This document shows, in pieces, positions 27,513 through 31,650 of a stretch of DNA of 64,000 nucleotides. Source of the DNA: Cyanobacteriota bacterium (GTDB lineage Bacteria > Cyanobacteriota > Cyanobacteriia > Cyanobacteriales > Microcoleaceae). Position numbers and translations under genes: made by a program. Position 1 is the stretch's first letter. The number at the start of each line of letters is the position of its first letter. The stretch lies in assembly GCA_025362325.1 (NCBI GenBank), contig JANYGO010000158.1:1-64000 (forward strand), written 5' to 3'. A model generated the notes under the pieces. That model was not told the DNA's origin. It did not search any database and saw only the letters and a program-made list of their open reading frames with translations.

Positions 27513-29834
27513 ATGACTTACGATACCGATAGAAACCCTATTTTACCTACCAATTTCTTAGAAAATAATGGAGAAGTCCTGACACCTTTGATAGCTTTTG
27601 CTCAGGAAGTTTTATTCCATGAAAATAATGCTTTTTCTGGAGAAGTTTCTATAAATGCAGTGCCGTGTTCGCGCGACGAAATAAATAATTTCTGTGTTGA
27701 AAATCTGGTAGCAAAAGTAGCTCGCTGCTGTCGAGAAAGCAAGATGGGTAAAAAATTACCAACGGCTTTCTACATTCACGTTTTGGCCTTGTCAGCACTC
27801 AACCCTGTACTTAGAATTTACGAAAATTGCGCCAGACGCCATCTCGAAAATATTGATGAAGCAACTTTAGTTAAATTTTCACTCCAGCAACCTAAAATAT
27901 CTTATCTTTTTTACCCGGATTTTGATACAGATGCTCACCCTGCTTTGCAAGCCAGCACCCAAATTAATCTGGAAACAGGGGAAGTTAAATATTTCGATTA
28001 CAGCAACAGCGAAAATCCGCCGGTTTTGCACCGTAAGGAAACTTTTGTAACTGCGGATTATCCCAATTACGAAAAATTTGCTCGACTGACTCGCAGCGAG
28101 GAAAAGTGGGGACTTTTGGACAATACTAGCGTGATCGGCACTCGCGATGGTTGGCTCAAATATTTGGGATATTGCGGTGTAGAAATTCAAGATCATGCTG
28201 TTGTCGAATGTTTGAAACAGGAAAATAGCGAGTTATCAAATCCTAAGATTGAGCGGCACAAAGCTGCGATGGTTCGCAACTCTATTTCTAAACCTGTGCG
28301 CCTGGTTTTGGAATCTGATTTGTTTTTTGATGGGATGACTTTCTTTGATTACGGTTGCGGCTATGGCGGCGATGTTAAATGTATTGCCGAAGAGGGTTAT
28401 GCTGCTGCGGGTTGGGACCCATATTATCAGCCGGATACTCCGCGAATTTCTGCGGATATTGTGAATGTTGGTTATGTAATTAATGTGATTGAATCCTTGG
28501 CGGAACGCCGAGAAGCTTTGCTGAATGCTTGGGAATTAACTAAGAATTTATTGGTGGTGGCGGCTCAGGTTTTGATTGATGATGGCGATCGCGGTCAAAT
28601 TGCTTATGGGGATGGGGTGATTACTTCTCGCAATACTTTTCAGAAGTATTACGAACAGCAAGAGTTGAAGGTTTATATTGACCAAGTTTTGAATGTTGAT
28701 GCGATTCCTGTGGCTTTGGGGATTTATTTTGTGTTTCGGGATGCGACGGCGGGTGAGGGTTTTCGGGCTTCTCGGTTTCGATCGCGCTTATCGACTCCCA
28801 GAGTGCGATCGCAAGTCAAGCGATTTGAGGATTATGCGGAAATACTGGCTCCTTTGATGGCTTTTGTGAGCGATCGGGGGCGTCTTCCGGTGAAAGGCGA
28901 ATTAGCGGAAGAATCGCCAATCAAGCAGGAATTCCACAGTTTTAACCGCGCTTGGAGGGTGATTTTGCAAGCTACCGACGCGGATGATTGGGAGAAAATC
29001 GCCGACAAGCGCCGCCAGGATTTGCTAGTATATCTCGCTCTCAACCGTTTGGGCGATTCCCTACAGGATGGCGACGCGGTGCGTCCTTCGATGCGCCGGC
29101 TTCCGGCTCAAATCCGCAATGACATTAAGGGTTTGTTTGACAGTTATCAAAAAGCTTGCACTTTGGCCGATTTAATGCTATACAGTTTGGGCAAAGCTGA
29201 TATTGTGGCGGATTGTTGCGAGGATAGCGCGATCGGCTACAAACAACCCGGTTCCCTTTCAGTTCACGTCTCATGTTTAGAAGAACTAGACCCTTTGCTG
29301 CGACTCTACGAAGGCTGCGCCAACCGCACAATTGGCAGGCTTGACGGTGCTACAATCATCAAATTTCACACTCGAAAACCGCAGATATCCTATTTATTTT
29401 ATCTCGATTTTGACACTAACCCGCATCCAGCCCTCCACAGGTCTATGCACATACATTTGCGCGACCTTTCTGTCAGCTACGAAGACTATTCAGATGCGTA
29501 CAATCCGCCAATTTTAGTTAAAAAAGAAGCTTTTGTCAATCCGAATTATCCGCATTACGAAAAGTTCGCGAAACTCACCCGCCAAGAGGCAAAGTTAGGG
29601 ATTTTGGATGGTTCCGTCGTTAAGAAATATCGGGAATGGGTGAAGTGTTTGGAGGACAATTGCGTGAGAATTAAGGGGCATAAGTTGTTTTGGCGATCGG
29701 ATGCTGACCCGGAAAAATTGAAAATACTGCAAACAAATGCGTCGGAACGCCAGCAGAAAAAAATTGAGGTTAATGCGGGTAAGAGTGAAGGAACCGCAGA
29801 GGGCACAGAGGGCACAGAGGATGGGAAAGAATAG
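27513..29834 (+). CDS. Putative SAM-dependent methyltransferase resembling DNA phosphorothioation-associated methyltransferases, with duplicated flanking domain
   Basis: IERHKAAMVRNSISKPVRLVLESDLFFDGMTFFDYGCGYGGDVKCIAEEGYAAAGWDPYYQP...ADIVNVGYVINVIES; internal homology between ~27700-28190 and ~29160-29690. Confidence 0.75.
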   Translation: MTYDTDRNPILPTNFLENNGEVLTPLIAFAQEVLFHENNAFSGEVSINAVPCSRDEINNFCVENLVAKVARCCRESKMGKKLPTAFYIHVLALSALNPVLRIYENCARRHLENIDEATLVKFSLQQPKISYLFYPDFDTDAHPALQASTQINLETGEVKYFDYSNSENPPVLHRKETFVTADYPNYEKFARLTRSEEKWGLLDNTSVIGTRDGWLKYLGYCGVEIQDHAVVECLKQENSELSNPKIERHKAAMVRNSISKPVRLVLESDLFFDGMTFFDYGCGYGGDVKCIAEEGYAAAGWDPYYQPDTPRISADIVNVGYVINVIESLAERREALLNAWELTKNLLVVAAQVLIDDGDRGQIAYGDGVITSRNTFQKYYEQQELKVYIDQVLNVDAIPVALGIYFVFRDATAGEGFRASRFRSRLSTPRVRSQVKRFEDYAEILAPLMAFVSDRGRLPVKGELAEESPIKQEFHSFNRAWRVILQATDADDWEKIADKRRQDLLVYLALNRLGDSLQDGDAVRPSMRRLPAQIRNDIKGLFDSYQKACTLADLMLYSLGKADIVADCCEDSAIGYKQPGSLSVHVSCLEELDPLLRLYEGCANRTIGRLDGATIIKFHTRKPQISYLFYLDFDTNPHPALHRSMHIHLRDLSVSYEDYSDAYNPPILVKKEAFVNPNYPHYEKFAKLTRQEAKLGILDGSVVKKYREWVKCLEDNCVRIKGHKLFWRSDADPEKLKILQTNASERQQKKIEVNAGKSEGTAEGTEGTEDGKE

Positions 29835-29967
29835 GGAGGGGAATAGTCATGGAACCAGAGTATGATTTTAGTTAGGGTAAGCGAGGGCGATCGCATTTTA
29901 ATTTTGCTAGGTGGTCAAATATTGGTACTTTTGTTCTAAACTTGGCTCATGTGCTAGATTTAAGTTC

Positions 29968-30255
29968 ATGAAGTTTGAGTGGGACGATCGTAAAAACCAA
30001 AGCAACCTTGCAAAGCATGGGTTTGACTTCGCTGATGCTTTTCGTATCTTCAACCTACCGATGGTTGTCGAATTAGATGAGCGAGAGGATTATGGTGAAG
30101 ATCGATGTATCGGTATTGGTTTACTTGATGGACGAGTTGTAGTTGTTGTCTACACGGAGCCCGATCGGGAAACAGTTCGCATTATCTCATTACCAAAGTC
30201 ACTGTCTTATGAACGCAGACGCTATGAACAATACCTCAAAAACCGACTGGGCTAG
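29968..30255 (+). CDS. brnT: BrnT-family toxin
   Basis: MKFEWDDRKNQSNLAKHGFDFADAFRIFNLPMVVELDEREDYGEDRCIGIGLLDGRVVVVVYTEPDRETVRIISLPKSLSYERRRYEQYL; start taken at internal ATG 29968. Confidence 0.9.
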   Translation: MKFEWDDRKNQSNLAKHGFDFADAFRIFNLPMVVELDEREDYGEDRCIGIGLLDGRVVVVVYTEPDRETVRIISLPKSLSYERRRYEQYLKNRLG

Positions 30256-30502
30256 AATCGACGCAATGAGCGATGAAGATATCGATACTTCCGATAGTCC
30301 ACCACTATCGGAGGAGTTCTTTACTAGAGCGCAATTACGAATGCCTCAGTCGGCTATTACTATGCCAGTTCAAGTCGATCCTGAAACATTTGCTTGGTTT
30401 CAGGCACAAGGAGAAACTGCACAACAGCAAATGTCTGTAGCACTTAGGATTTATGCAGATGCACACAAAACCTATCCTGCATTCGTAGCAAAGCCAGCAT
30501 AA
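30209..30502 (+). CDS. brnA: BrnA-family antitoxin
   Basis: Overlaps 3' end of brnT; SEEFFTRAQLRMPQSAITMPVQVDPETFAWFQAQGETAQQQMSVALRIYADAHK. Start at 30209 or 30224. Confidence 0.82.
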   Translation: MNADAMNNTSKTDWARIDAMSDEDIDTSDSPPLSEEFFTRAQLRMPQSAITMPVQVDPETFAWFQAQGETAQQQMSVALRIYADAHKTYPAFVAKPA

Positions 30503-30646
30503 CGCTCGGCAGTACGATGAGGAAAGTTATGGAAACAGAGTATGATTTTAGTCAGGATAAGCGAGGGGCGATCGATCCAACATTACCTGGGAAAACTTTG
30601 TTGATAAGCGTTTACAATTCAGACTGTAGAATTCCTAGCGGTTGAT

Positions 30647-31246
30647 ATGGAAGAATACTTGAAAGTGAGTGAAGTTATTGATTGGCAGCATCCCGAAATT
30701 AGGGAATGTGCTAAACAAATCGCATCGGGACATGAGACACCAAGGGCGATCGCCAAAGCGTGTTTTGAGTGGGTTAGAGATGAAATTCGTCACAGTTATG
30801 ACTATCAAATGAGTCCTGTTACCTGTCGAGCTTCAGATGTTCTTCAGCACAAAACAGGTTATTGCTATGCGAAAAGTCACTTGTTAGCAGCGTTACTAAG
30901 AGCAAATGATATTCCAGCAGGTCTTTGTTACCAGCGGTTGAGTATTGATGATAAAGGTGCGCCTTACTCATTGCACGGTTTCAATGCCATTCATTTACCT
31001 GAAGTTGGTTGGTATCGGGTTGATGCCAGAGGTAACAAAGAAGGAGTCAACGCTCAATTCACTCCACCTCAAGAACAATTAGCTTTTAAGATTCAGTTTC
31101 CTGAAGAGGCATATTTTCCAGCCATATTCTCAGAGCCGCTTCCAGTCGTTATAGAAGCATTGCAAGCACAGAAGACATGGGATGATATGCTTCGCAATCT
31201 CCCAGACATTTCGTTGGAGTCCGCCAATAGTTATGGTCTGCTATGA
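30647..31246 (+). CDS. Transglutaminase-like domain protein
   Basis: AIAKACFEWVRDEIRHSYDYQ...ASDVLQHKTGYCYAKSHLLAALLRANDIPAGLCYQRL...HGFNAIHLPEVGWYRVDARGNKEG (Cys-His-Asp arrangement). Confidence 0.9.
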   Translation: MEEYLKVSEVIDWQHPEIRECAKQIASGHETPRAIAKACFEWVRDEIRHSYDYQMSPVTCRASDVLQHKTGYCYAKSHLLAALLRANDIPAGLCYQRLSIDDKGAPYSLHGFNAIHLPEVGWYRVDARGNKEGVNAQFTPPQEQLAFKIQFPEEAYFPAIFSEPLPVVIEALQAQKTWDDMLRNLPDISLESANSYGLL

Positions 31247-31304
31247 TACACATCGAATCCTGCTTTGGGCAGGCGCAGCGTTTTGAATTGTTCACGGGGT
31301 AAAA

Positions 31305-31367
31305 GAGCCGCAACTTATTTCAGGACGTAAAGCAACTCGTCAGGAGAGGGCAGAGTATGAAAGTTGA
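31305..31367 (+). pseudogene. BrnT toxin C-terminal remnant
   Basis: Frame reads EPQLISGRKATRQERAEYES*, matching the BrnT C-terminal signature; in-frame TGA at 31284-31286 just upstream, no N-terminal domain found. Confidence 0.65.
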
Positions 31368-31650
31368 AGCATTAAAGCAGCGATTAAACCGCAACCGTCC
31401 AATGACTAGCGTGACTATCCGTATGCCCGAAGATGTTGTGGAAGATTTAAAAAAAGTTGCACCATTGTTGGGTTTTTCGGGTTATCAGCCATTAATTCGT
31501 GCTTATATCGGTCAAGGTTTGCGCGTTGATTTAGAACGATTTGAGAGCGAGACAGTCACAGCCTTAGTAGCAAGTTTGAAGCGTCGAGGTGTCAGCGATG
31601 CAGTGATTGATGAGGCATTAAAGGAAGTCGTTCATGCTAAATCATGTTAA
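31357..31650 (+). CDS. Ribbon-helix-helix/BrnA-like antitoxin (orphan)
   Basis: MTSVTIRMPEDVVEDLKKVAPLLGFSGYQPLIRAYIGQGLRVDLER; ATG overlaps the stop of the BrnT remnant. Confidence 0.75.
   Translation: MKVEALKQRLNRNRPMTSVTIRMPEDVVEDLKKVAPLLGFSGYQPLIRAYIGQGLRVDLERFESETVTALVASLKRRGVSDAVIDEALKEVVHAKSC

Follow-up and report, generated by a model that had tools for sequence, protein, structure and literature searches.

Identification of a two-lobed TIGR04096 methyltransferase

The window, which is the whole 64,000-nucleotide stretch of cyanobacterial DNA that we analyzed, contains a complete open reading frame (ORF) with an ATG start at positions 27513 to 29834 of the plus strand. Its 773-amino-acid (aa) product scored 868.1 bits (cutoff, 150) against TIGR04096, the NCBIfam family "DNA phosphorothioation-associated putative methyltransferase," so the HMM search confirmed the family assigned in the initial annotation. 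The match spans residues 245 to 728 and all 478 positions of the profile, in which a methyltransferase portion is followed by a single C-terminal lobe. A second match (193 bits), confined to profile positions 312 to 476, revealed an additional copy of the lobe of ~165 aa at the N terminus (residues 67 to 232; 27711 to 28208, plus strand). Aligned over 162 aa, the lobes share 49% identity and score 160 bits, versus 22.7 bits for the best shuffled copy. This recurrence had been reported previously for this ORF, and the peptides quoted in that report are present verbatim.

The domain order is thus lobe, methyltransferase, helical linker, lobe, all on the plus strand. The class I SAM-dependent methyltransferase domain (residues ~245 to 420; 28245 to 28772) was delimited by the start of the TIGR04096 profile, an AlphaFold2 model, and fold matches in the PDB. 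It includes SAM-binding motif I (the FDYGCGYGGD region, residues 277 to 287; 28341 to 28373), and D279, Y280, G281, C282, G283, D287, W301, D302, and P303 of the SAM site are invariant among 55 aligned family members. The linker (residues 421 to 540; 28773 to 29132) is helical in the AlphaFold2 model and basic in composition (calculated pI, 10), and the C-terminal lobe (residues ~557 to 728; 29181 to 29696), which belongs to the standard profile, was modeled with a pLDDT of 90. Judged from its sequence, the protein is a putative SAM methyltransferase with a conserved SAM-binding site and an ordinary member of a known family. PADLOC, Pfam, and PHROGs offered no family for it (Pfam Methyltransf_23 reached only E = 0.05), and PF18735, our first guess, turned out to be irrelevant. 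The source genome carries a single full-length copy of the gene.

The doubled lobe is common in the family

The double-domain layout had been proposed as a novelty of this ORF. Whereas the TIGR04096 profile holds one lobe, most of the members that we examined, like the 773-aa protein, add an N-terminal one. Across 291 genomes of the class, the full-length members listed were mostly ~660 to 810 aa with a separate second lobe match, and about ten were 483 to 530 aa. Almost all members in 30 genomes of the source genus were two-lobed, as were roughly four-fifths of the carriers in a 60-genome survey of the order. All six annotated plasmid members examined, which span cyanobacteria and three proteobacterial classes, also had two lobes (Synechocystis, Trichormus, Massilia, Methylibium, Pseudoalteromonas, and Microvirga, the second copy being weak in the last). 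Among fetched loci, a set that overrepresents Nostocales, BLAST identified 66 two-lobed and 44 one-lobed members, the latter mainly from Nostocales.

The short, one-lobed forms (~485 aa) are a minority found chiefly in Nostocales dnd operons, and two or three changes on the tree explain them. The simplest reading of these sequences is that the N-terminal lobe was lost in a few lineages, although the root of the tree is insecure and an Acidobacteria member is also single-lobed. The gene is therefore ordinary for its family, and the surprise claimed for its layout does not hold, on the very grounds that the initial annotation had named as counting against novelty.

Structural models and catalytic motifs

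The AlphaFold2 model of the 773-aa protein (pLDDT, 82.6) has a class I (Rossmann-type) fold in the catalytic domain, for which the best PDB matches were Trm9, METTL6, TehB, NmbA, and natural-product methyltransferases, all of them weak (E of about 1e-4 to 1e-3). TehB, NmbA, Trm9, and METTL6 are class I enzymes that use SAM to methylate small molecules, thiols, and tRNA. What the protein shares with them is the Rossmann-type domain and the glycine-rich motif I; none of the four has a counterpart of the flanking lobes. The base-methyltransferase motifs [DNS]PP[YFW] and PCQ occurred in 0 of the 55 aligned members, with NPP[VI] confined to the lobes, so by catalytic motif these members do not belong with the DNA base methyltransferases (N6A, N4C, or C5C).

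Neither the sequence profile of the lobe nor its structural model had a significant match in the PDB; one viral model matched part of the lobe model (E = 5e-6). The paired nucleic-acid-binding lobes suggested in the initial annotation are a possible reading of the layout. Both lobes are neutral to acidic by calculated charge, and an argument for DNA binding from charge alone is unsupported.

Genes surrounding the methyltransferase

Between the methyltransferase gene and a conserved ArsA gene (29911 to 31650) lie ORFs for BrnT, a BrnA-like protein, a 199-aa transglutaminase-like protein, and a CopG-like protein, a set that varies among relatives. The initial annotation described decayed and intact toxin-antitoxin modules here, which is largely right: the BrnT toxin ORF is intact (29911 to 30255; 79.6 bits), the score of the BrnA-like ORF is under its cutoff (19.8 versus 26.1 bits), and a CopG-like ORF comes after it. 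The wider gene order is kept in 19 Microcoleaceae loci, with a response-regulator family upstream in 16 and ArsA in 18, and the toxin-antitoxin and other small genes between them variable. The G+C content shows no step around the window copy.

The source genome carries dnd genes on another contig

The adjoining ORFs examined include no dnd gene, as noted previously, and none lies within about 10 kb of the methyltransferase gene in the 19 Microcoleaceae loci. This absence is true of the window alone. Another contig of the same genome (C185) encodes DndC (TIGR03183, 711.8 bits), DndD (TIGR03185, 639.3 bits), DndB (Pfam, 291 bits), and DndE (Pfam, 146 bits), with dndB divergent from dndC-dndD-dndE (locus L135), and PbeC- and PbeA-type genes lie on a third contig (C344). 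SspB (DUF4007, PF13182) had no match in the source genome (G000). The dndBCDE genes give the source genome a phosphorothioation (PT) system, and adjacency to dnd genes is not something that the TIGR04096 model demands.

G277, a completely sequenced genome from this genus, has the methyltransferase gene at 2.61 Mb and dndC at 6.22 Mb. Given this megabase-scale distance, the separation is real rather than an effect of assembly. Within the genus (30 genomes), the methyltransferase exceeded the TIGR04096 cutoff in 29 genomes, dndC was present in 28, and 27 had both; G316 has dndC without a full methyltransferase gene, and G291 shows the reverse. The dndBCDE genes have been independently reported in Microcoleus (PMC8546630), and a survey found cyanobacterial dnd genes to be scattered and mostly vertically inherited (PMC8569181). 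That survey reports dnd clusters in Cyanobacteriales alone, and we found full-length DndC in genomes labeled as other orders of the class; the taxonomy versions may differ.

The methyltransferase accompanies both Dnd and Ssp systems

Among the 291 cyanobacterial genomes, 107 of which carry the methyltransferase by our hand tally (108 by the search program's count), it was present in 51/51 genomes with DndC, 48/50 with SspB, and 28/29 with a DndC-like gene of ~400 aa, or 94 of the 97 genomes with any of the three. Thirteen of 107 carriers lacked all three, and several of these hold PT-gene fragments. Since DndC and SspB barely correlate with each other (14 genomes with both; P = 0.04, a value inflated, like others for these correlations, by the relatedness of the genomes), a single common descent fails to account for the co-occurrence, and the association held within two genera (P = 0.007 and P = 0.005). 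Physical linkage was also frequent, with 73/103 copies having a PT gene no more than 12 kb away, 31/50 SspB genes within 4 kb of the methyltransferase gene, and 26/51 DndC genes within 12 kb of it.

The arrangements differ among lineages. The gene is part of the dnd locus in Nostocales (dndC-dndD-dndE-methyltransferase), Pseudoalteromonas (heading dndBCDE), and Rhodococcus (after dndABCDE; PMC8416521), whereas dndBCDE in the source genome is not adjoining. In other cyanobacteria, a 54 to 57% identical methyltransferase is encoded divergently from sspB-sspC-sspD (PADLOC SspB, SspC, and SspD, 1e-118 or better), as on plasmid A of Trichormus variabilis ATCC 29413, whose copy NCBI has annotated (AVA_RS27575) and whose sspBCD set is complete, and in two proteobacteria the gene adjoins SspFGH-type genes; in a further setting, it adjoins the DndC-like gene. 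The family as a whole shares the SAM motif, C-terminal domain, and PT-gene link of the 773-aa protein. Another relative already annotated by NCBI is SGL_RS00125 on pSYSM of Synechocystis PCC 6803, and its presence in a model cyanobacterium makes the family directly testable. The pSYSM locus (L195:21602-24235) encodes SspB beside an SspC-like ORF of just 563 aa (versus about 1,180 aa), a DndA/SspA-type desulfurase, and the methyltransferase; this Ssp system looks incomplete.

Where one genome has both an Ssp-side and a Dnd- or DndC-like-side copy, the two are 95.0% (G213), 93.7% (G012), 91.0% (G269), 94.6% (G257), or 74.6% (G118) identical. On the methyltransferase tree, the Dnd/Ssp context has to change eight times, seven of them forced by well-supported branches. 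The near-identical pairs may owe something to gene conversion between copies in the same genome, yet this too would require that one protein be able to serve both systems.

The family therefore appears to serve two unrelated PT machineries interchangeably. It is curated and apparently uncharacterized, although cyanobacterial PT systems have it almost as regularly as they have the enzyme that inserts the sulfur. Our literature search for it yielded an annotation table (PMC8416521) and otherwise unrelated papers, and the surveys and reviews of PT components that we found do not discuss it (PMC8569181, PMC10853773).

An unannotated ~200-aa family is a second partner

A family of ~200 aa (alignment A3), represented at L148:16018-16623, L227:2322-2753, L198:12083-12502, and L228:5388-5987, matched nothing in Pfam, NCBIfam, or the PDB. 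Its members occur repeatedly next to the methyltransferase, in Ssp and Dnd neighborhoods as well as in unlinked ones. The methyltransferase was present in 47/50 genomes with a full-length copy of this second partner, and 33/50 copies were within 12 kb of the methyltransferase gene. In cyanobacteria the two are encoded side by side, whereas in proteobacteria (Massilia, 872 aa; Methylibium, 918 aa) and on a viral-collection contig (L227, 874 aa) the partner forms a C-terminal fusion with the methyltransferase; at L228, its gene lies between sspD and the methyltransferase gene. Its invariant residues include DQH, GAA-DF, and H-S, and by eye it resembles M15/LAS-type zinc peptidases, which is only a lead. 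The family is missing from the source genome.

Possible roles of the methyltransferase

Descriptions of the best-studied Dnd and Ssp systems have them functioning without such a methyltransferase. Based on these sequence comparisons, we consider it probable that the product of the window gene is a SAM methyltransferase associated with PT, that it cooperates in trans with dndBCDE, encoded on a separate contig, and that it acts on something that Dnd and Ssp share. Target selection distinguishes the two systems (double- versus single-strand PT), and sulfur mobilization is common to both (PMC8092258). Since they have only the sulfur steps and the PT-DNA product in common, the enzyme would act either on the sulfur-mobilizing pair (DndA/SspA and DndC/SspD) or on PT-DNA. 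The two lobes may hold or recognize the substrate around the catalytic domain and, more speculatively, single-lobe members might pair up.

Our leading, if tentative, candidate for the reaction is that DNA receives a further modification at PT sites or immediately beside them; we rank this above a thiol, persulfide, or protein substrate. A more specific version, to which we give perhaps one chance in a few, is that the methyltransferase, often with the ~200-aa partner, provides an extra step shared by Dnd and Ssp that methylates PT-DNA and so creates, tunes, or erases the mark. If so, many natural PT sites would bear an additional modification, at least transiently. Against a PT-associated role in trans stand the lack of linkage to dnd in the source genus, the 13 carriers without a full PT gene, the discordant genomes G316 and G291, and the descriptions of well-studied systems that function without the gene.

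A possible, though doubtful, alternative is that the enzyme methylates a thiol, persulfide, or Fe-S/persulfide state of DndA/SspA or DndC/SspD. It would then regulate the supply of sulfur or render it harmless instead of marking DNA. The sulfur steps are exactly what Dnd and Ssp share (PMC8092258), and the fold matches to TehB and the bacillithiol methyltransferase NmbA, the neutral-to-acidic lobes, and the missing DNA-base methyltransferase motif are all consistent with such a substrate. However, tRNA methyltransferases match the fold at similar scores, and a small-molecule enzyme would not need lobes of this size and conservation.

The PT-independent DNA modification or defense methyltransferase suggested as possible by the initial annotation is improbable. 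The unlinked genes of the source genus, the 13 carriers, and a jumbo phage that lacks DndC yet encodes the lobe and, in a different ORF, a weakly related methyltransferase would fit a standalone enzyme. Yet dndBCDE and PbeA/PbeC elsewhere in the genome and the joint presence of the methyltransferase and dndC in 27 of the 30 genus genomes make a standalone function unlikely, and the near-complete co-occurrence with DndC and SspB, the lack of [DNS]PP[YFW] or PCQ, and the lack of a PADLOC hit argue in the same direction. A nonfunctional remnant of a lost or relocated dnd operon, as the dnd-free surroundings of the 19 Microcoleaceae loci might suggest, is highly improbable for a gene that is intact, exceeds the cutoff in nearly every genus genome, has an invariant SAM motif, and is kept alongside dndC.

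Related genes in other settings

The DndC-like gene encodes a PP-loop protein of ~400 aa that reached about 137 bits against TIGR03183, short of the cutoff; it is paired with a gene for a 248-aa protein beside the methyltransferase gene (L145:8318-10449 and L143:12227-14359). This pair sometimes occurs in genomes without DndC and represents a possible third PT-type setting. In the jumbo phage, an uncultured 485-kb phage (LR745208.1; L202:4944-6635), the standalone lobe is 190 aa (85 bits), and the weakly related methyltransferase ORF lies just downstream. The source genome also encodes, on contig C83 (L154:5728-6591), a methyltransferase with related motifs I and II fused to a HIT domain, which scored 58 bits, under the TIGR04096 cutoff, and is present in nearly all genomes of the genus.
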